Shown: positions 298 through 21,428 of the stretch, one piece after another
Position numbering within the stretch: position 1 is the stretch's first letter
How the letters are laid out: each line of letters begins with the position of its first letter
Virus record (IMG/VR): IMGVR_UViG_3300042938_002446
Coordinates: 1-21,428 of that record
Source: a virus
DNA: 21,428 nt
Direction: 5' to 3' (one strand)
Notes under the pieces: generated by a model
What the model was told of the DNA's origin: nothing
What the model saw: only the letters and a program-made list of their open reading frames with translations
The model's database searches: none
Translations under genes and position numbers: made by a program

Positions 298-780
298 TTA
301 TGCCTTGGAAATTGTCTTTTGGCGGGCTTGCCAGATGAGAGCTTTGTGTTTCTCAAAAAGGGCGGATGCGGCCTTGCGGTCGCCGGACTCTACGGCGGCG
401 AGATACTCAGCGACGGGGTCGAGGGCTTCCGGTGCGGCATTGGAAATGATGGGAACGACGCGGGCGGCGGAGAGGCCGAGGCTACGCTCGAGGCGGGCAA
501 GGTCTTGGCTGACGGTGTCGAACTTCGCTTTATAAGCGGAAGATTCGGCTAGGGCGCTGTCGAGCTTCGCGGAGAGTTCGTTGTATTTCGCAAGGATCGA
601 ATCGGCGATGTTTGCCTTGGCTTGTGGTTCGTCCACGACGATCTCCTCGGTGACCGGTTGCTCTGGCTCTACGGCTGGAGTTGGTTCGGAGGATTCGACC
701 TCGAGGATGGGCTCGGCGGCGATGGACTCGCTGACTACGGTTCCAGCTTCGGGAACTTCGATCTCTGCTTTTTGGCTCAT
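298..780 (-). CDS. possible nested scaffolding protein (in-frame internal start in the protease gene)
   Basis: An ATG at 778-780 (Met201 of the protease) lies exactly between the protease domain and the linker/coiled-coil part. It is preceded directly by AAAGGGC, a purine run very like the GGAGGGC in front of the portal start. Initiation here would yield a 160-residue protein containing the acidic linker, the coiled coil and the charged tail. In lambda the scaffold Nu3 is made from an internal start within gene C, so this would be the same design. Proof requires proteomics or mutational data; the purine run is closer to the ATG than is optimal. Confidence 0.33.
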   Translation of the reverse strand: MSQKAEIEVPEAGTVVSESIAAEPILEVESSEPTPAVEPEQPVTEEIVVDEPQAKANIADSILAKYNELSAKLDSALAESSAYKAKFDTVSQDLARLERSLGLSAARVVPIISNAAPEALDPVAEYLAAVESGDRKAASALFEKHKALIWQARQKTISKA

Positions 781-1380
781 GCCCTTTGCGAAGTTGTCAA
801 ATCTGGCGCGGAGATTTTCGGGGGTGGCTGTTGCAGCTGCTGCGACACCCTCCTCGATGGCGTCGGCAAATCCGAGGGCGACGGCATCCACGGCGTCGAG
901 CCATGTTTCTTTGTCCATCATGTCTTGAATCTCGGTTTCTCCGAGGCCTGTCTTGCGGACGTAGGCGTTGCGAAGATTGACCTTGAGCATGTCGAGGAGG
1001 TCGGCTTCTTTGCGGAGGTCTTCGCTGCCGCCCATGCTGACGGTCCAAGGATTATGGATCATCATGAGTGCGTTGTCGGCAATGAGAACGGGAGCGCCGG
1101 CCATGGCGATGACGGAGGCCATCGAGGCGGCGAGCGCGTCGATGTGAACGGTCACCCCTCCTTTGTGCCGGCGGAGAGCGTTGTAAATCGCGGTGCCTTC
1201 AACCACGGAACCCCCGGGCGAATTAATACGGAGGTGGATGTGTTGACCGGAGAGCTTGCCGATGTCTCCGAGGAATTGCTTTGAGCCTGCGCCAAAAGCA
1301 CCGATTTCGTCGTAAAGGGTGACCGTGGTTTCGTTGTCGCCGGATTTTTCCAGAGCATAAAATGTGGGGTTGGTTGTCAT
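298..1380 (-). CDS. ClpP-like (S14/S49-type) head maturation protease with C-terminal scaffold-like region
   Basis: A 360-residue protein that should process head proteins inside the prohead. Residues 1-180 form a ClpP-like fold: INSPGG at 52-57, the AASMAS nucleophile elbow with Ser86, MMIHNPW with His109, and a WLDAVDAVALGFAD segment at 160-173 expected to hold the acidic residue. Residues 205-255 are a Glu/Pro-rich linker. Residues 260-303 look like a coiled coil, and the tail is Ala/Lys-rich, as in scaffolding proteins. This matches the lambda gpC arrangement, in which protease and scaffold share a reading frame. The start overlaps the portal stop (ATGA), indicating translational coupling. 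A nested start at Met201 is listed separately. The family call is firm; the scaffold role of the C-terminus is inferred from order and composition. Confidence 0.88.
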   Translation of the reverse strand: MTTNPTFYALEKSGDNETTVTLYDEIGAFGAGSKQFLGDIGKLSGQHIHLRINSPGGSVVEGTAIYNALRRHKGGVTVHIDALAASMASVIAMAGAPVLIADNALMMIHNPWTVSMGGSEDLRKEADLLDMLKVNLRNAYVRKTGLGETEIQDMMDKETWLDAVDAVALGFADAIEEGVAAAATATPENLRARFDNFAKGMSQKAEIEVPEAGTVVSESIAAEPILEVESSEPTPAVEPEQPVTEEIVVDEPQAKANIADSILAKYNELSAKLDSALAESSAYKAKFDTVSQDLARLERSLGLSAARVVPIISNAAPEALDPVAEYLAAVESGDRKAASALFEKHKALIWQARQKTISKA

Positions 1381-2837
1381 TGTGTTGATTGGGTGGCTGC
1401 AAAGGTTGCTTGGTTGCGGAGGTTGCTTGGGAATACGGCGTTGAGATCAAGGCCGAGGGCGGCGCATTTCTGCTGGCGGCGTTGGAATGTCTGGATGATG
1501 TCGTCTTCCTCTGCTTCGGCATCGAGGCCGAGGATGTTGCAATAGCGCTCCCATGACATGAGGCCACGGTCGAGGAGGTCAGCGTAGAGGCGACCGTCGC
1601 GGCCATTGTCCACCGTGATCTTGCGAGGGGTGACCCATTCTACTCTCCACCAATCGTCGCCAGGGTAAGGGAGGCGACCGGCTTGGATCTCTTGCCAGAT
1701 CCAGAACTTCCAAGCGGGAAAACAGAACTGATCGATGACCATCTGCTGGATGCGCTCGAGGAAATTCTGTGCGACCTCTATGAATCCGCGCATTTCTGTG
1801 CCGGCCAATCCGGTCAAGAGCATGATGGCCTCGGGCGGGACTCCCACCGCTCGGGCGATGTCTTCGGAGTAGCTTCGCATGAGTGGCTCGAATGCGGCAC
1901 CGGGCGCTTCGTTTTTAAAAGATTGGATGGTCTCGCCGGGCTTGAGGCGAGGAATGAGAGTGCCGTTGTAAAGTGAGTCGGTGGTGATCTCGTCTCCGTC
2001 TTGGTTCGTGATCTTCGTTGCCCCGAGGCCGATCTTGACCGCTTCGTTGCTGGTGATGGTGAAGCCGATTTGAGATCCGGCCTTGTAAGCGCCTTTAACG
2101 TATCCGCGGGTTTCGGATTTATCCTGGGCGGGGATGATCGCGCTGTGAAACCATGAGACGCCACGGGGCTGGCCGACGCGGCGGACGTGGCGCATGTGCA
2201 TCATGTCGGCCACGGGCACGTCCACGAACTTCCCATTTGCCCGGTCGGTGATGACGCGGTAGGAAATGGGCGCTCCGAATTGATCGAGGAGCAGGCCATC
2301 ATAGGCGCGGTCGCTTGAGCTTGCGGTGCTGCCGACTTGCTCGCCACCGATGAATCGGAAGCGTGCGCCTCCGGTTGCGGTCGTTAGCTTTTGCGCGAAG
2401 AAGTCACCATCGAGGGCGACCTGACGAATGATGAGCGATTGGGAGGAGTAGAAGTTGACGGAATCGGACGCATCGAAGGCCCATGATTCTCCGCAGGCGC
2501 GATCTTCAAAATGACGCTCGGCGAGGCGGTTCCACTCTGTGTCAGCGGTGCGGGCCTTGGCAACGATGCCAGTTCCGATAGCGCGTTGAGCGATATGCTC
2601 CACGATGTAGGTGACCTCGGGCACATTATTGTAAAGCCAGCGGGCCTTGCGGATGAGTTGCTCGCGGGTGCGTGGGGTGAGTTCGCGCTTGGGGTCAACC
2701 GTATCGATGAGGATGAGGCCGCGTTGATGGGAGATATCCGCGGCCTCGAATGCTGACGCTTTGGGTGAGGGTTTGCGTCCGGAGCCTTCGCGTTTGCCGC
2801 CCCATCTTGATTTTTTGATTTCCTGCTTGGAGGCCAT
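1377..2837 (-). CDS. lambda-type portal protein
   Basis: A 486-residue portal subunit, which forms the dodecameric ring at one head vertex through which DNA is packaged. It shows lambda-gpB-family features: LTPRTREQLIRKARWLYNN, a long FRFIGGEQV segment, MMHMRHVRRVGQPRGVSWF, AYKAGSQIGF, LKPGETIQSF, and an IARAVGVPPEAIM helix followed by WKFWIWQEIQAG. Length is typical. A purine-rich GGAGGG sits only two bases before the ATG. Unusually, residues 12-23 (RWGGKREGSGRK) match the basic Gly/Lys/Arg motif normally found at the N-termini of small terminase subunits, suggesting DNA or terminase contact. It lies between the joining-position gene and the protease, as in lambda (A-W-B-C order). Confidence 0.92.
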   Translation of the reverse strand: MASKQEIKKSRWGGKREGSGRKPSPKASAFEAADISHQRGLILIDTVDPKRELTPRTREQLIRKARWLYNNVPEVTYIVEHIAQRAIGTGIVAKARTADTEWNRLAERHFEDRACGESWAFDASDSVNFYSSQSLIIRQVALDGDFFAQKLTTATGGARFRFIGGEQVGSTASSSDRAYDGLLLDQFGAPISYRVITDRANGKFVDVPVADMMHMRHVRRVGQPRGVSWFHSAIIPAQDKSETRGYVKGAYKAGSQIGFTITSNEAVKIGLGATKITNQDGDEITTDSLYNGTLIPRLKPGETIQSFKNEAPGAAFEPLMRSYSEDIARAVGVPPEAIMLLTGLAGTEMRGFIEVAQNFLERIQQMVIDQFCFPAWKFWIWQEIQAGRLPYPGDDWWRVEWVTPRKITVDNGRDGRLYADLLDRGLMSWERYCNILGLDAEAEEDDIIQTFQRRQQKCAALGLDLNAVFPSNLRNQATFAATQSTQ

Positions 2838-3135: not shown

Positions 3136-3269
3136 GTCCTCGGCGGGGTGTCAAAAAGAAGTCCCGTCCCCGGTGATCAAGCGGGTGAGCCTGTCGATTC
3201 AGGCGCTATTGGTGCGCGTGCTTAAAAGCAGAGGCGAAGCGGGAAGTGATTTTGCGAGGGAGTCAAAAA

Positions 3270-4973
3270 TCAGTTTTTTAAAACATGCCAAGCGATGTGG
3301 CAGAGTTTGAGTGCGTCCATGTAGTGATCTTGTGCGACGGATTTCCATATCAGCTCGGTCCCGCTGGCGGTCTTGCGCGGGACGAGACGCTGGCCTCCGA
3401 GGCCTCGGAAGAGTTCGTTCGTGGAATCCGCCGGCAGCTTTAGCGGCGGGTGCGCGTTGCGGATGCGGTCGCTGAATAGCTCGGTCTTGATGGCGTGGTC
3501 CACGTAGGTATAGAGGACAACGCCTGGGAAGTCGGGAAGAACGGTGCGGGAAATCTTCGTGCCGAATGTGGCACCGGACCCCTTGCTTGCGTGCCAGAAT
3601 CCGCCGGAGGCTTGGCAGGCGGTGTAAACTCGGAAGGTGGCGAAGCCGGAATCCATCAGCCCGCACTCGGGGGAGACCTCGGCACCGGATGGCGTGCGGT
3701 AGCTGCGGCGCGGTGAGTCTTCGAGGAGATCCTCGATGGCGAGGGTGGTTCCGTAGTCGAGGACGTAGGATGCGCCGACGGCATCGAATGCGACCGTGAC
3801 CCAGTGCTGTTTGTCCTGGCCAATGTCCGCGCAAGTGACGATATGCGAGGGCTCGATGGGGCATGTCCCGCGAAGGTAGTCTCCGCGCAGGGCGAGGATG
3901 TTGGTCTCGCCGATGCTGGTCTCGATTTGCTCCCACGGCATGGCCATGGTGGAGTTTGTAAAATCTTGGAGGCCGTTGATGGTTCCCTTGTCGCGCAGGA
4001 ACTTGATCGCAAGAGCGCCGAATGTGCAGGATCGCCAGGGAGCGTAAAGGCTGTTTAGGTGGAAGGATCGGAATCCACGCTGGGCGGCGGGGTTGGTGGA
4101 TTGCCATTTGCCCACGGCGAGCATTTCCATTTTTTGGCCGTCGTTGATTTTTGCGTTGCACCGTTGGCAGAGGTAATGCGCGGACTCCTCTACGCGGGCC
4201 ATGTTCCATTTCCCGTCTTCCTTGGCGGTGGCATCCCACTTCACTTGCTCCCAGAGGAGCTCGATGCGCTCGGAGCAATGCGGACAGGCGAGCATGAATT
4301 TTTCCTGCGTGCCTTTCAAAAACTCCTGCCAGATCGCGCCGTCGGGCGTAGTGGGTGTGGAGGTCTTGACTCTGAGCGCACCGACAAAGGACTTCGTGCG
4401 GTTCTCGGCTAGGAAAAGGGCGGAGGTTTCGGAGTCGGTTTCCCTGGCGAACTTGTCAACTTCATCCATCAAGAGGAGGCCGGCGGGACGGCTGGCAAGA
4501 TTCGCGGGGGAGTTCGACCCGACGAACACAAGCGAGCACCGCGAAAAATGCTGCTCGAGGTTTTTGAATTTGTGGCGGTCGCTGGGGATCTGATCTCGGA
4601 GGGTGGCGCTGTCTTCAAAGAGCGGGAGCCAGCGTGTCTCGGAAAAGGATCGGGCGAGGCCTTCGGTAGGCATGACCCAAACGACGGGCTGCGGCTTGTT
4701 GACGATCCGCCATGCCGTGCCAGCCTGCACCATCGTGGTCTTGCCGGTCTGCGTTCCGAATACGAGCACAAGGTCGGAGACATCCACATCGCCAAAGCAC
4801 TCAAGCGGTTCGCGTAGGTAGGGCGTCATGCGCGTGGAGAAGTTGCCAGGCATTTGGGTTTGCCGCTCCGATAGAACAACCTCATCCTCGCACCATTCGT
4901 TCACCGTCCGAATGTCGAGAGGGGCAAGGATGTTTTCGACGGCGGTAGCTACGCCTCGATCCGCTTTGGCCAT
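3270..4973 (-). CDS. terL: terminase large subunit, GpA family (packaging ATPase and nuclease)
   Basis: A 567-residue motor and nuclease that cuts concatemeric phage DNA and pumps it into the prohead. The N-terminal ATPase domain has VFGTQTGKTTM (Walker A, about 71-81) and GLLLMDEVDKFA (Walker B, 165-176). A Cys cluster, CPHC at 230-233 with CQRC at 269-272, is the zinc-ribbon typical of GpA-type enzymes. The C-terminal RNase H-like nuclease has acidic residues in TCADIGQDKQHW (Asp383), GLMDSGFAT (Asp440/441 region) and QDHYMDALKL (Asp553). The MPGNFSTRMTPYLREPL segment near 41-57 is a family hallmark. The gene overlaps the end of the small subunit by 25 bases. GpA-type enzymes normally package from cohesive (cos) ends. 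Confidence 0.95.
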   Translation of the reverse strand: MAKADRGVATAVENILAPLDIRTVNEWCEDEVVLSERQTQMPGNFSTRMTPYLREPLECFGDVDVSDLVLVFGTQTGKTTMVQAGTAWRIVNKPQPVVWVMPTEGLARSFSETRWLPLFEDSATLRDQIPSDRHKFKNLEQHFSRCSLVFVGSNSPANLASRPAGLLLMDEVDKFARETDSETSALFLAENRTKSFVGALRVKTSTPTTPDGAIWQEFLKGTQEKFMLACPHCSERIELLWEQVKWDATAKEDGKWNMARVEESAHYLCQRCNAKINDGQKMEMLAVGKWQSTNPAAQRGFRSFHLNSLYAPWRSCTFGALAIKFLRDKGTINGLQDFTNSTMAMPWEQIETSIGETNILALRGDYLRGTCPIEPSHIVTCADIGQDKQHWVTVAFDAVGASYVLDYGTTLAIEDLLEDSPRRSYRTPSGAEVSPECGLMDSGFATFRVYTACQASGGFWHASKGSGATFGTKISRTVLPDFPGVVLYTYVDHAIKTELFSDRIRNAHPPLKLPADSTNELFRGLGGQRLVPRKTASGTELIWKSVAQDHYMDALKLCHIAWHVLKN

Positions 4974-9078: not shown

Positions 9079-9106
9079 TATCTATCTAGGGCGTGCTGGG
9101 TTTGCT

Positions 9107-9155
9107 TTAGGTTAGCGTTAGGTTCCATTTAGGTTAGGGTTAGGTTAGGGTTAGG
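9107..9155. repeat. TTAGG/TTAGGG iterated repeats (possible replication iterons)
   Basis: The segment 9129-9155 is a perfect alternation of TTAGG, TTAGGG, TTAGG, TTAGGG, TTAGG, an 11-bp unit repeated. Degenerate units (TTAGG at 9107 and 9118) precede it. It sits in the only non-coding gap between the initiator-like gene and the helicase, with two palindromic elements beside it. This arrangement fits an iteron-type origin. Binding protein and function are inferred. Confidence 0.6.
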
Positions 9156-9159
9156 TATT

Positions 9160-10233: not shown

Positions 10234-10496
10234 TTTCTATTTTTGTTTGATGTTTGCGATCCACTTATACCCCGCTCTATCGCTGCGGTTTGTGCCTTGC
10301 CTGCCAAGCCGTGCCGCGCCTCGCCTTGCCATGCCTCGCCTGCCACGCCTCGCCCTGCCGCGCCACGCCTGGCCGTGCCGCGCCAGGCCTGCCTTGCCGT
10401 GCCTTGCCCCGCCTTGCCTCGCCTAGCCTGCGTAGGGTTGCAGTCGGATTCCACGGAATCCGCTGCGGGTTGTGTTGTCGCCGTGGCGAAATCCAT
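10230..10496 (-). CDS. putative low-complexity Arg/Gly/Ala protein encoded by a GGCNN repeat array
   Basis: An 88-codon frame begins one base after the stop of the upstream gene and ends with an ATGA overlap on the downstream start, filling the gap exactly. The first 24 residues (MDFATATTQPAADSVESDCN and on) and the last 20 (AIERGISGSQTSNKNRK) are ordinary sequence. The middle, about 26-68, is written by a GGCNN pentanucleotide array and reads as TARQAWRGTARRGAAGRGVA-type low complexity, strongly basic. No family is recognised. It may be a translated gene, or a repeat that has kept an open frame. The exact coupling at both ends is the main argument for translation. Confidence 0.42.
   Translation of the reverse strand: MDFATATTQPAADSVESDCNPTQARRGKAGQGTARQAWRGTARRGAAGRGVAGEAWQGEARHGLAGKAQTAAIERGISGSQTSNKNRK
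10294..10430. repeat. GGCNN pentanucleotide array
   Basis: About 137 bases read on the minus strand as successive GGCAA, GGCAC, GGCGA, GGCGC, GGCAT, GGCGT units with few breaks. The GGC anchor is kept while the two following bases vary. It is not a CRISPR (no long repeats, no spacers) nor a simple microsatellite. Confidence 0.85.
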
Positions 10497-14738: not shown

Positions 14739-15743
14739 TTACAAAGCCCAAAACGCTTTAGCTTCGCTTTGACGAACTCCCCTAGCATACTTTTCTTCGA
14801 CCATGCGCGGGGATGAATGGCCAAGGAAGTAAGCGGTCTTGCTGCTGTCCTGCCACATGGCACGGTGCATGGAGGCCGAGGTATGTCTCAGGCAGTTTTG
14901 CGGCCACTCGGCCCACCCCATTTGAGTGCATAGCTCAGTGCGGTCTCGCTTGATAAAGCCTTCCTCTAGGCAGTCCCATTTTTTCGGAAGGTGTCGAAGT
15001 AGCGCCGGCTGGATCGGGACGAATCTCGGGCGAGGCTTGGGGTCGGTGGATTTCCGAAATGGCACAAATATCTCTTCCGCTTCAATGTGCTTCGGCATAC
15101 ATCGTTCGATTTCCGAGACTCGCATTCCTCCGAACAAGCCAAGGACGAGCCAAGCCCGGAGGCGGTTGTTTTTTTCCGTAAGGGCGAGGAGGCGCTTAAT
15201 TTGCGGCATGGTCAAAAGGTGGTGCTCCGGCGCGGCCTTTGGCGAGTCGATCTTCAGCACAGGGTTGACCGCTGCGAGCTCGTAGCGCACAAGCCAGTTC
15301 CACACTAGGCGAAGATAAACGAAACCCTGTTGCGCCGTAGTCCCGCACCAACTTGGGCGAGACAGAAAAGACTCAATGTGGACCGGCTTGATGTCATTAA
15401 TACCCATCGTGCCGTATTTCTCCACAAAATGACCCCACCACCAATTAAGGAGTCGGGTATGGTTGCCCTCCTTGAGCTTCGGCATCCGCACCAGGGTAAA
15501 TTCCTTCCATGCCTTCTCAACTGAAAGCCCCGAGGATTCCTTGAAGGCGTCCGTGCCTCCGGTCTCTAATTTCTCGGCCAGCGCATCGCGGTGCAGGCGT
15601 GCCTCGAGGCGGGTATTAAAGAACGTGCGTTTCTCTTTGCCGTTGATTCGGGAAAAAACAACGTGGCGGGGTTGCCCACGCACCGTGGCCTCGCGGATGG
15701 TGATTACCGGCCTGTTGCGTCGTGTTGCGTCCGTTGCGTCCAT
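14739..15743 (-). CDS. int: tyrosine-recombinase phage integrase
   Basis: A 334-residue site-specific recombinase. The N-terminal part (about 10-65) looks like an arm-binding domain (RGQPRHVVFSRINGKEKRTF). Residues 73-170 form the SAM-like core-binding domain. The catalytic domain carries LGLFGGMRVSEIERC with Arg208, a basic beta-turn (FRKSTDPKPRPRFV) with a Lys, PQNCLRHTSASMHRA with Arg286, YFLGHSSPRMVEEKYARGV with His309 and the nucleophile Tyr319. The usual first His of the HxLRH motif is Asn283 here. The gene ends near the poly-G tract and starts 107 bases from the tRNA-derived attachment core, as typical for tRNA-targeting phages. Upstream GTTGCGTC triplicates overlap its first codons. 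Confidence 0.93.
   Translation of the reverse strand: MDATDATRRNRPVITIREATVRGQPRHVVFSRINGKEKRTFFNTRLEARLHRDALAEKLETGGTDAFKESSGLSVEKAWKEFTLVRMPKLKEGNHTRLLNWWWGHFVEKYGTMGINDIKPVHIESFLSRPSWCGTTAQQGFVYLRLVWNWLVRYELAAVNPVLKIDSPKAAPEHHLLTMPQIKRLLALTEKNNRLRAWLVLGLFGGMRVSEIERCMPKHIEAEEIFVPFRKSTDPKPRPRFVPIQPALLRHLPKKWDCLEEGFIKRDRTELCTQMGWAEWPQNCLRHTSASMHRAMWQDSSKTAYFLGHSSPRMVEEKYARGVRQSEAKAFWAL
15714..15740 (+). repeat. three GTTGCGTC repeats at the integrase start (possible arm-type sites)
   Basis: GTTGCGTC occurs at 15714-15721, 15724-15731 and 15733-15740, spaced 10 and 9 bases. This is about one helical turn. GTTGCG recurs at 15931-15936 and 15942-15947 on the other side of the attachment core in the same orientation. 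The copies also encode repeated Asp-Ala-Thr in the integrase N-terminus, so coding chance is an alternative. Confidence 0.4.
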
Positions 15744-15849
15744 AATGGCATTTTAAGCCATTTAGGGCAACTTTCAACAAGTTTCAAAGGCATTCAGAGA
15801 AAACCCGCACAGCCAATGCTGAAGCGGTTTGAGGGGCTGTAGAGAGGAG

Positions 15850-15894
15850 AGCCGACGACGAGACTCGAACTCGTGACCTATCGATTACGAATCG
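15850..15894 (-). other. attP core: 3' half of tRNA-Thr (anticodon CGU)
   Basis: On the minus strand, 45 bases form the 3' half of a tRNA. They are an anticodon loop TTCGTAA (15885-15891, anticodon CGU), the 3' strand of the anticodon stem, a five-base variable loop, a T-arm with perfect 5-bp stem ACGAG/CTCGT around TTCGAGT, and the acceptor strand CGTCGGC with T at the discriminator. The matching 5' half (acceptor GCCGACG, D-arm) is absent. Pairing stops at 15895, within the anticodon stem. The loop and acceptor match the known tRNA-Thr(CGU) type. The 3' end points to the integrase. Integration would restore a host tRNA-Thr. No CCA is encoded after the discriminator. Confidence 0.82.
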
Positions 15895-15930: not shown

Positions 15931-15947
15931 GTTGCGCGGGCGTTGCG
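15931..15947 (+). repeat. two GTTGCG repeats beyond the attachment core
   Basis: GTTGCG at 15931-15936 and 15942-15947, spaced 11 bases and in the same orientation as the three copies at the integrase start, in the non-coding space between the attachment core and the endolysin stop. Candidate arm-type integrase or excisionase sites. Confidence 0.35.
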
Positions 15948-15964
15948 TTTTTGGCTTTTTTTCC

Positions 15965-16444
15965 CTACGCCAAAACGTCAATTTTTTTGGATACTCGGGA
16001 GCGGAGGGTGGCGATCATGTCGCGCTCGGTCATGCCGGTTGCCCACTTCGGCCGGAGTTGGTAGTGCGGTGAGTCGTTGAATTTCCAACGGCCTCCCCAC
16101 TCGAATCCGAGGGATTCGCCGAGGGGTCCGAGCTCGCGATAGAATGCGTGGTCGCCGTGGTAGGTCTTGCCGTCTTTTGAAAATACGGCGACATCGAGGG
16201 CCAGCGAGTAGTTGTGCATGGAGGCCCCACCGGCGGCGTTACTGACCCTAGGGCCGGGCGTGGTGCGGCCTTTGGCGTAGAGGGCGTCCTGCTCGGCCCA
16301 TGTTCGGAGGCCACAGATGCACTTGACGTCGAGGCCGAGCGGGGCGGCGAGCTTTTTGGCCGCAAGGATAAAGGAGGCGGCGCGGGCGTAGATATCCGGG
16401 TGGAGGGTCGAGAGGTTGCGCTCGGATCTTTCGTCTAGGTTCAT
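15965..16444 (-). CDS. endolysin, M15 (VanY/L-Ala-D-Glu-type) peptidase
   Basis: A 159-residue peptidoglycan peptidase that should cleave peptide cross-bridges at lysis. Start chosen at ATG 16442-16444; the longer open frame lies in the preceding gene. The M15 signature is complete: ICGLRTWAEQDALYAKGRTT (44-61 region), SMHNYSLALDVAVF with His77 and Asp84, and NDSPHYQL with His127 as zinc ligands, plus GFEWGGRW, typical of T5-like and Listeria-phage endopeptidases. There is no signal peptide, so release depends on a holin. It is the last gene of the lysis cassette, five bases after the lipoprotein stop. Beyond its stop lie GTTGCG repeats and the attachment core. Confidence 0.92.
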   Translation of the reverse strand: MNLDERSERNLSTLHPDIYARAASFILAAKKLAAPLGLDVKCICGLRTWAEQDALYAKGRTTPGPRVSNAAGGASMHNYSLALDVAVFSKDGKTYHGDHAFYRELGPLGESLGFEWGGRWKFNDSPHYQLRPKWATGMTERDMIATLRSRVSKKIDVLA

Positions 16445-16448
16445 TTGA

Positions 16449-16697
16449 TCATTTGTCGCGGAGGAGTTTGGCTTCGCCGTATTTTGACCACGCGAATGCA
16501 TGGCTGGTTTCGCCTGGGGATTCGGGTGGCGTGTTGGGGATGTATTTTGCGGAGAGGGCAAGTTGAAGGTTTCCCAGCTCTCCGATGCGGTCCCCGAATG
16601 GCGGGATCGGCACGTTGACGCAGGAGGTCAGGAATGCCATGCCGAGGAATACGAAAGACAGGAGGACCATCAACAGCGCGATCCGGCGGGGTCTCAT
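16449..16697 (-). CDS. small lysis-cassette lipoprotein (outer-spanin-like)
   Basis: An 82-residue protein from ATG 16695-16697 (ATGA overlap with the upstream gene). A basic start (MRPRRIALL) precedes a hydrophobic signal (VLLSFVFLGMAF) and a lipobox LTSC with Cys26. This predicts a lipid-anchored protein, followed by a Pro-rich polar region (VNVPIPPFGDRIGELGNLQL). Between a small membrane protein and the endolysin it sits where outer-membrane spanins occur in Gram-negative phages. No inner spanin partner is recognised, so the role could instead be that of another phage lipoprotein. Confidence 0.65.
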   Translation of the reverse strand: MRPRRIALLMVLLSFVFLGMAFLTSCVNVPIPPFGDRIGELGNLQLALSAKYIPNTPPESPGETSHAFAWSKYGEAKLLRDK

Positions 16698-18433: not shown

Positions 18434-19246
18434 TTAATAGATGGCCCACTTTGCGTTGAGGTATGATTCCACGGATTGACGTTGAGCAGTTGTGAGCGCC
18501 GTGTTGTAGATGATGATTTCGGCGATATCTCCGGTTAGCCATTCACTTAGTCCAGGAATGGAGCCACCGATCCCAAACAATAAAGATGGAGTGTTTGGTG
18601 TCGTCCCAACAGTCTGAAAGCTAGGAGAGCGCGAGGCGCCTGTTCCATTTTTATACGCAGTTAATGAAGCCGCGTTATATTTAAAGTTTGCGCCAGCAAG
18701 GACCCACTCGTTTGTTACTAAAGTGCCTTGCTTTACAAATTGATATGAATCCGTATCAAGTCGCCTTCCCCCGCCCTCGATGGCATTTGTTATATAAATC
18801 GACGAACGTGCTGGACCTGCTGTCGTTCCGATGCTATTATGTATTACTGTTTGATAGTAACTTGCTGACAGTGTTTTGGTTGATCTGCAAACGGCAAATA
18901 GATTTAAGACTCCAATACTTTGAGATATCGCTGAGTTTGCTATACTTAAGATATCATTTGCACCATCAAATCGAATGACGTTTTTGGCATTTTTAATGCC
19001 TGTTTTAAGGGCAGGCCTAGCATTCGCCGTTCCTTGCGATATGTGTCTGCCGTTGCCCGATTTATCCTGCCAACGAGCGACCGTGGCTCCATCTGTGGAA
19101 ACTAAATTCCCGCCGGATGTGGCATCGTACAGCGTTGTGGCGTCTGCCGCATCCAGCCAAAGCTGGAGGCCTGAGATATTTGGCCATACAGGCTTTGTGC
19201 CGCCTAGATTGAGGACACCCATCTGACCGTAAAGAGGCGTAATCAT
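18434..19246 (-). CDS. LamG/concanavalin-type lectin adhesin (receptor-binding candidate)
   Basis: A 270-residue protein from ATG 19244-19246, chosen over an in-frame ATG at 19276 because it gives the ATGA overlap seen across the operon. The signature of LamG-like concanavalin domains is present: ISGLQLWLDAADATTLYDAT, VSTDGATVARWQDKSGNGRH, RFDGANDILSI, FAVCRSTKTL, then SEWLTGDIAEIIIYNTALTT and a Gly-rich loop. Such domains bind carbohydrate and are common at tips of phage fibres. Base composition is clearly AT-richer than the neighbours, pointing to recent acquisition. Receptor unknown. Confidence 0.82.
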   Translation of the reverse strand: MITPLYGQMGVLNLGGTKPVWPNISGLQLWLDAADATTLYDATSGGNLVSTDGATVARWQDKSGNGRHISQGTANARPALKTGIKNAKNVIRFDGANDILSIANSAISQSIGVLNLFAVCRSTKTLSASYYQTVIHNSIGTTAGPARSSIYITNAIEGGGRRLDTDSYQFVKQGTLVTNEWVLAGANFKYNAASLTAYKNGTGASRSPSFQTVGTTPNTPSLLFGIGGSIPGLSEWLTGDIAEIIIYNTALTTAQRQSVESYLNAKWAIY

Positions 19247-19608
19247 GCGAAAGTTAAGTTTTGCTTGTTTGACCACGCGCCGGTGGCGCTGGCTTCTGCG
19301 GTGACTTCGCCTGCGGCGTCGGTGGTGGTGCGGGCGACGTCCCAGAGGGCGCTGTCGTAGATGGACCCGCTGTTTGGGAAGTCGGCGTAGGCGAGCTTGC
19401 CGTAGAAAAGGTTTGAGCCGATGATGTCGAAGACTTCGACTTTATCGGGCACCGGACGAGTGCCGATGCGGAAGACATTGCCGCTTGCGTCTTTGCTGTA
19501 CAGGCAATGGTCGGCGAGGTTTTGGAGGATCTCTCCGACGCCGAGTTGGTCGCTGGTCGGTATACGACCGGCGATTGAGGATTTTTTGGGTATGATTTGT
19601 GTGGCCAT
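19243..19608 (-). CDS. tail-region protein with a module shared with the right-edge fibre gene (121 aa)
   Basis: Starts ATG 19606-19608, 78 bases after the upstream stop across a strong hairpin. The N-terminus contains AGRIPTSDQLGVGEILQNLA, then YSKDASGNVFRIGTRPVPDK. The last 40 residues (SALWDVARTTTDAAGEVTAE ... TGAWSNKQNLTFA) mirror the last 40 of the fibre gene at the right edge (TSWTVRRSTTDAAGRVLAVA ... TGSWLNRETLAY). The shared end is probably an oligomerisation or attachment module. Function of the N-terminal half is unknown. Confidence 0.68.
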   Translation of the reverse strand: MATQIIPKKSSIAGRIPTSDQLGVGEILQNLADHCLYSKDASGNVFRIGTRPVPDKVEVFDIIGSNLFYGKLAYADFPNSGSIYDSALWDVARTTTDAAGEVTAEASATGAWSNKQNLTFA

Positions 19609-20632: not shown

Positions 20633-20860
20633 TCAAAAACTGCCGCAATCGATGATCGGGATCATGAGGGCGTAACTGCTCGCGGAGGGCGACCAGCGGT
20701 AGGGCATGCCTTCGTCGAGGGCCATGTAGAGGCGGTCGGATTTGCCGGTGCTGGGAAAATTGGAGCGCGTGGGATATTCGACAACGATGCCTGGCAGAGT
20801 GAGGTCGAAGCTCGAGAGATCGAGTTGCTGGGTTAGGTTGCTCTCGGTGATCGTTGTCAT
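20633..20860 (-). CDS. small tail-region structural protein (75 aa)
   Basis: Start ATG at 20858-20860 shares one base with the upstream stop (TAATG); longer frames upstream are shadow. It has a polar N-terminus (TTITESNLTQQLDLSSFDL), then VVEYPTRSNFPSTGKSDRLY and MALDEGMPYRWSPSASSY. The SDRLYxAxDEGxxYRW pattern is found in small fibre-associated modules of many phages, where it displays a peptide-like surface. Likely part of the tail-fibre complex; exact role unknown. Confidence 0.65.
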   Translation of the reverse strand: MTTITESNLTQQLDLSSFDLTLPGIVVEYPTRSNFPSTGKSDRLYMALDEGMPYRWSPSASSYALMIPIIDCGSF

Positions 20861-21428
20861 TAGTAAGCGAGAGTCTCCCGGTTGAGCCACGATCCGGTGG
20901 CGGTGGCGACTGCGAGGACGCGCCCGGCGGCGTCGGTCGTGGAGCGGCGGACGGTCCACGATGTGGCGGTGTCGGGCAGGGCTGGTAAAGCGGGGCGGTT
21001 GGCATTGAGCAAGCGCCCGCTGTAGGTCGTGAGGCCGTCGGTGCTATTGGCAAATGCGAAGAGATAGAGGGTCGGGTCAATGGGCGGCTGGACGCTGCGG
21101 AGGCCGAGGGCGGTGGCGGCGATCTGGGTGCCGACTGCGGGAGCGGCGTCGAATGTGATCGTGCCGCTGGCTTCGCTCACCGTGTAGTCGGAGGTGGGGG
21201 TCTGGGTTACGCCATTGAGGGCGACGAGGACATGCTCGGGGTCGTTGCCTGCAAGGCCGTCGATAAGGAATGTGGTCGCGGTGCCGTCGCCGGTGCGGAC
21301 CGTGGTGTTGATGCTGAGGCCGGGGGCCGATGCGACGATGAAAGCGGATAGGCCGGTGATGTCCGTGGCGGGGTGCGTGTGGACGGCGTCGGCTTTGTTG
21401 GCCAGCTCGGCGGATACCCAGAGATCGT
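20860..21428 (-). CDS. tail-fibre protein, C-terminal part (cut by window edge)
   Basis: The frame is open from the right edge to a TAA at 20860-20862. An internal GTG at 21180 is not taken as the start because the upstream part has protein-like sequence: DLWVSAELANKADAVHTHPA, TDITGLSAFIVASAPGLS. The HTHPATDITGLSAF block is the H-x-H metal-binding/trimerising motif of phage fibres. It is followed by a beta domain (TTFLIDGLAGNDPEHVLVAL, NGVTQTPTSDYTV, AAPAVGTQIAATALGL) common in tail fibres. The last 40 residues match the C-terminus of the gene at 19243-19608. Confidence 0.75.
   Translation of the reverse strand, partial: DLWVSAELANKADAVHTHPATDITGLSAFIVASAPGLSINTTVRTGDGTATTFLIDGLAGNDPEHVLVALNGVTQTPTSDYTVSEASGTITFDAAPAVGTQIAATALGLRSVQPPIDPTLYLFAFANSTDGLTTYSGRLLNANRPALPALPDTATSWTVRRSTTDAAGRVLAVATATGSWLNRETLAY

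Follow-up and report, generated by a model that had tools for sequence, protein, structure and literature searches.

The window analysed here, the whole 21,428-bp viral record, is a 21.4-kb fragment in which half of a tRNA gene lies among phage genes. What is this half doing there, and which host does it point to? A sequence-only reading of the locus had taken it for the attachment site (attP) of an unintegrated genome that uses a host tRNA-Thr gene as its target. We conclude with high confidence that it is the attP of a temperate tailed phage whose lambda-class tyrosine integrase inserts the circular genome into the tRNA-Thr(CGU) gene of Chthoniobacterales.

A tRNA-Thr 3′ half next to an integrase gene

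The minus-strand sequence of positions 15850-15894 is CGATTCGTAATCGATAGGTCACGAGTTCGAGTCTCGTCGTCGGCT. This core contains three bases of the 5′ strand of the anticodon stem, the loop TTCGTAA, the 3′ strand of the stem and the variable region, followed by the T arm, the 3′ strand of the acceptor stem and the discriminator T, without CCA. It had been described as a clean tRNA-Thr(CGU) 3′ half and, indeed, it is identical at 45/45 positions to a segment of complete host tRNA-Thr(CGU) genes that reaches their 3′ end. The 5′ half is missing, as claimed: ARAGORN found no complete tRNA in the window. A chance match is ruled out by the exact 45-base identity to a tRNA and by the fact that all three genome matches are complete tRNA-Thr(CGU) genes. 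In the anticodon stem-loop (CGA-TTCGTAA-TCGAT), two of the five stem bases of the 5′ strand fall outside the identity with the host, so that the match begins inside this strand, where the break had been placed. Such a left edge is consistent with strand exchange of class A (anticodon-loop).

Phage genes lie on both sides of the core (Table 1), in the arrangement that the sequence-only reading had given. On the left are found the integrase, an excisionase-like gene, recombination genes, DnaB, the terminase, the portal and the ClpP-type protease, with the capsid gene running off the left end; on the right, the endolysin is followed by fibre genes that run off the right end. The gene adjacent to the core encodes a tyrosine integrase with its catalytic residues: R208, K231, R286, H309 and Y319 are invariant in 13 relatives, while N283 stands where the first H of HxxR is usual. 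Its profile also matches the solved structure of Gp33 (5vfz; 4.3e-07). The candidate excisionase, whose function is predicted from a score above the curated cut-off of its family, is 95-100% conserved in the relatives G003 and G005.

Table 1. Coordinates of the attachment site, of its surroundings and of other phage genes in the window.
Feature	Position	Strand	Remarks
attP common core	15850..15894	(-)	found unchanged within the complete tRNA-Thr(cgt) genes of L046, L047, L048
Putative arm-type site P1, ACGCAAC	15942..15948	(-)	54 bases before core
Putative arm-type site P2, GCGCAAC	15931..15937	(-)	43 bases before core
Putative arm-type site P′1, ACGCAAC	15733..15739	(-)	110 bases after core; inside first codons of int
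Putative arm-type site P′2, ACGCAAC	15724..15730	(-)	119 bases after core; within int
Putative arm-type site P′3, ACGCAAC	15714..15720	(-)	129 bases after core; within int, frame differs from P′1/P′2
Weak hairpin after core	15805..15827	(-)	z -1.4; counterpart strong, terminator-like in L017, L027
Predicted sigma-70-like int promoter, TTGAAA-16-TAAAAT	15750..15777	(-)	consensus scan, 1 found vs 0.2 expected
Tyrosine-recombinase integrase (int), 334 aa	14739..15743	(-)	reads away from core; PHROG phrog_1 integrase 2.2e-29
Candidate excisionase (directionality factor), 62 aa, helix-turn-helix	13821..14009	(-)	NCBIfam TIGR01764 'excise' 38.1 bits, cut-off 28.8
Endolysin (M15 peptidase)	15965..16561	(-)	other side of attP from int
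Terminase large subunit (GpA type)	3270..4973	(-)	35% to Akkermansia phage Moulinsart
Portal protein	1377..2837	(-)
ClpP-type head maturation protease	298..1380	(-)	gene where circular G003 was cut open

The target gene and the probable host

We scanned one genome per species, for 84,980 prokaryote species, for exact copies of the 45-base block. Only three contigs carry it, each inside a complete tRNA-Thr(CGU) gene. They belong to metagenome-assembled records titled Spartobacteria bacterium UBA5019, Spartobacteria bacterium ZE-3nov15-113 and, for the third, Chthoniobacter flavus. In their complete tRNA-Thr(cgt) genes the block is preceded by GCCGACGTAGCACAGTGGTAGTGCAAT, which together with the 45-base core makes up the full host tRNA. 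The search against bacterial genomes that had been suggested at the outset thus yielded the predicted target, and the direct route to the host that had been hoped for leads to Chthoniobacterales (Verrucomicrobiota).

When up to three mismatches were allowed, the block was found in 15 of 213 Chthoniobacterales genomes, within a complete tRNA-Thr gene in 14 of them and as a half only in the remaining one (G113); among 384 genomes drawn from across the class, none outside Chthoniobacterales had a match. The empty bacterial site (attB) is represented by complete tRNA-Thr genes in 13 genomes. The three genomes with the exact block encode no related integrase except for one weak fragment, on another contig, and their sites are therefore considered empty. 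The likely hosts of this phage, known from environmental DNA alone, are uncultured Chthoniobacterales bacteria. Independent support comes from the nearest named phage by both terminase and integrase, Moulinsart, which infects Akkermansia, a member of the same phylum. Among the titles and abstracts listed, we found no published phage of Chthoniobacter or Spartobacteria with a matching site.

Some further observations were made in the host genomes. The start of the core recurs in the UBA5019 locus (L046) as an inverted, exact copy of 27 bases (positions 3227-3253), at a distance of 1.3 kb from the complete tRNA-Thr gene; by eye, the ORF pair between them resembles a toxin-antitoxin pair of the DUF5615/DUF433 type. 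The tRNA-Thr 3′ half of G113 (L069, G113:C29:34-78), without its 5′ half, is located at a contig end and is probably the attR of a further element. Finally, distant integrases of the same family (27-36%) are found in Chthoniobacterales near tRNA genes for Arg, Ser, Leu and Asn (L052-L054, L057, L058, L061, L063).

A circular, probably unintegrated form

It had been proposed to look for circularity or terminal redundancy. The window itself has no terminal repeat, but the near-identical G003 (35,497 bp) closes as a circle. Indeed, its two ends share an exact 127-bp terminal repeat located inside the gene for the ClpP-type protease, and an exact repeat of such a length is the usual sign of circular assembly. 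The ends of G003 map co-linearly on the window, its proteins are mostly 91-99% identical to those of the window, and the circle carries attP inside. In G005, which also has attP inside, the ends close over 13 bases at almost the same point. Judged from these near-identical relatives, the circular genome measures about 35-36 kb. Circularity is seen directly in G003 and not in the window contig, which is likely a fragment of this circular, unintegrated form. Moreover, about 21 related contigs, most of them from different metagenomes, match the window to the left and to the right of the core (phage-core-phage).

The claim of an unintegrated attP therefore stands for the attP and for the circle of G003, while the state of the window itself is deduced from its relative. 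Indeed, where two prophages of a tandem array meet, the sequence is that of an attP, and the window, which has no terminal repeat, could derive from host-borne DNA with such a junction at the tRNA gene and phage on both sides. Arrays of this kind are documented, with 125 at tRNA genes in Islander (PMC4383910). We nonetheless find this origin improbable: G003 closes as a circle of one unit length, the host genomes searched showed no tandem array, and about 21 related phage-core-phage contigs stand against a single viral contig with attL, in a collection that favours viral contigs.

We give hardly any credence to an assembly artefact that would have joined two phage ends at a short tRNA-like repeat. 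An assembler might be misled by a 45-bp repeat that also occurs in host genomes, but about 21 independent contigs, mostly from different metagenomes, agree in the order on either side, and the circle of G003 contains the core junction too.

Integrated forms in relatives

A free circle that targets a tRNA gene should have integrated counterparts in which one end restores the tRNA and the other carries the displaced fragment. We found these in relatives only, as attL and attR in G123 and as an attL end in G017. In the Chthoniobacterales genome G123, contig C94 shows a complete tRNA-Thr(CGU) gene directly followed by a related integrase (54%) and more phage genes. On contig C4 the identical core lacks the 5′ half; it is bordered on one side by host genes (SMC-like and glycosyltransferase-like, named by eye), and a stretch of about 31.6 kb on the opposite side has many genes that match phages G014 and G015. 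Pairing the two contigs, we infer a single prophage of about 38 kb, with its attL on C94 and its attR on C4. A blastp search for synteny between the flanks of G123 and those of the empty sites gave no matches, so that integration in G123 is read from its own two junctions and from its phage genes. In the viral contig G017, whose integrase is 78% identical, the core is preceded at the contig end by TGGTAGTGCAAT, twelve bases of the host 5′ half, as would be expected of an attL. In G116, an integrase with 77% identity is cut off at the contig end.

Prophages with this integrase beside a tRNA-Thr gene, which the sequence-only reading had suggested looking for, were thus recovered as relatives at 54% (G123) and 78% (G017); no prophage with an integrase more than 90% identical to that of the window was found in any host genome searched. 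Counting the relatives, all predicted states were found at the sequence level: circular attP, empty attB and integrated attL/attR.

The core follows host tRNA alleles

Related integrases, at 55-96% identity, are encoded by 30 viral contigs, and in all 30 the tRNA-Thr(CGU) 3′ half lies ahead of the integrase gene. The core variants form alleles, most of which equal a host tRNA allele over 44 bases: that of the window is found in host genomes G021-G023, the GAATC allele in G109-G111, G114, G118 and G124, the CAAATCTC allele in G116 and the CAAATCCC allele in G115. Between phage-core alleles, T-stem pairs change on both sides, with 100% of the T-stem cells paired. The covariation score was reached by none of 500 shuffles, the rows being related to one another. 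Such covariation is in keeping with a core that has to restore a functional tRNA; we take it as support and not as proof.

These observations also bear on another reading, in which the phage once had a tRNA gene of its own and the 45 bases are what is left of it after decay, unrelated to integration. It is common for phages to carry tRNA genes, and the absence of the 5′ half would fit decay. However, the same half, with the same cut, lies at a near-fixed distance ahead of every related integrase, the core tracks host alleles and keeps its T-stem pairing, and integrated forms exist; the attL/attR pair of G123 directly contradicts a simple remnant. We consider this explanation extremely unlikely and retain that of an attP.

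A related int-attP cassette is also present beside quite different structural modules in G017 (L082, L083) and in G014 and G015 (L124-L128), which suggests that it is exchanged as a unit.

Putative arm-type repeats drift in concert on both sides of the core

Five of the 12 RCGCAAC copies in the window form a pattern around the core, two before and three after it. These putative arm-type sites are short (7 bp) and are defined purely by the conservation of their pattern. Their positions are fixed in nearly all of the closer relatives. In the more distant ones, GCGCAAC, TGCCAAC or TGGCAAC occurs on both sides of the core and the 11-bp spacing on the left is kept, which brings the versions of the sequence to at least four with ACGCAAC. 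Left and right sites of one genome have a mean distance of 0.27, compared with 1.62 between groups: across relatives, the direct repeats on both sides drift in concert. P′3 lies in another frame than P′1 and P′2 (CGA CGC AAC vs GAC GCA AC), which argues for selection on the DNA. The integrase would presumably bind these repeats with its N-terminus and, through the right-hand ones near the predicted promoter, may regulate its own gene.

It could go either way whether int-attP is a swappable module of otherwise different Chthoniobacterales phages, with an arm sequence that exists in at least four versions, in step on both sides, and with three sites inside the first codons of int. If so, a single stretch of DNA would be coding sequence, recombination site and operator at once.

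Proposed integration pathway and comparison with known systems

We can propose the following pathway. The integrase would recombine the phage circle (about 35-36 kb) with the host tRNA-Thr(CGU) gene, presumably with a crossover within the anticodon loop. The phage core would then replace the 3′ half of the host gene, leaving an intact tRNA beside int (attL), and the displaced 3′ half would mark the opposite end of the prophage (attR). To do so, the integrase would bridge the core with the two direct repeats before it and the three after it. As the last three overlap the start of int and adjoin its promoter, bound integrase may repress its own gene. Directionality would probably be set by the small excisionase-like protein whose gene lies just past int.

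In kind, the site is ordinary: it is a tRNA attP of the anticodon type, used by a lambda-class tyrosine integrase, and its mechanism is textbook. Among the 3,919 tRNA-gene islands of Islander, 2,083 are anticodon-centred, and its class A islands likewise show identity from the anticodon loop to the 3′ end, a displaced 3′ tRNA fragment and a tyrosine integrase (PMC4383910). There is no essential difference with these, except that here we deal with a phage group of an uncultured lineage. The organisation of the site is also close to that of cluster K mycobacteriophages: in Pixie, two plus three direct arm-type repeats surround a 47-bp core at tRNA-Lys, in CrimD (K1) a stem-loop terminator lies between core and arm sites, and arm-site sequences drift among closely related integrases of the cluster (PMC3203893). 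As in these phages, the core of the window reproduces a portion of a tRNA gene and lies 5′ of a tyrosine integrase gene; its putative arm-type repeats are divided two and three between the sides, as in Pixie. It differs by its tRNA (Thr-CGU), by the host phylum and the motif, and by the three right-hand repeats that overlap the start codon region of int; similarity between the integrases is at the level of the tyrosine-recombinase family only. Moulinsart (ON453896) shares the order terminase, small gene, portal and ClpP protease, a 35% terminase, a partial integrase match (28%) and a host in Verrucomicrobiota, but it is distant and its replication genes differ.

To our knowledge, little has been learned about the phages that infect Chthoniobacterales (Spartobacteria), and for most contigs of this kind no host has been assigned. 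The useful results here are the host assignment, the completed attP/attB/attL/attR set and the concerted drift of the arm sites. The attP block links a phage group to a defined set of uncultured bacteria, down to single tRNA alleles, and offers an easy way to test for lysogens. Moreover, the co-drifting arm sites form a natural data set on how the DNA-binding specificity of an integrase changes.

Other features of the window

A strong terminator after the core was considered and rejected for the window, where the hairpin is weak; it is strong in the relatives L017 and L027 (z = -5.6 and -5.7). The interval that separates the DnaB-helicase gene from its upstream neighbour holds, at 9099-9156, an 11-bp repeat (GGTTAGCGTTA) in about five copies, which look like the iterons of a replication origin. 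Imperfect GC-rich repeats with periods of 5, 10, 15 and 39 lie between two early genes at 10293-10431. Finally, the fibre-region ORFs at 19243-19608 and 20860-21426 have related C-terminal parts, with cross-matches of 40-62% in relatives, which suggests a duplicated fibre module.
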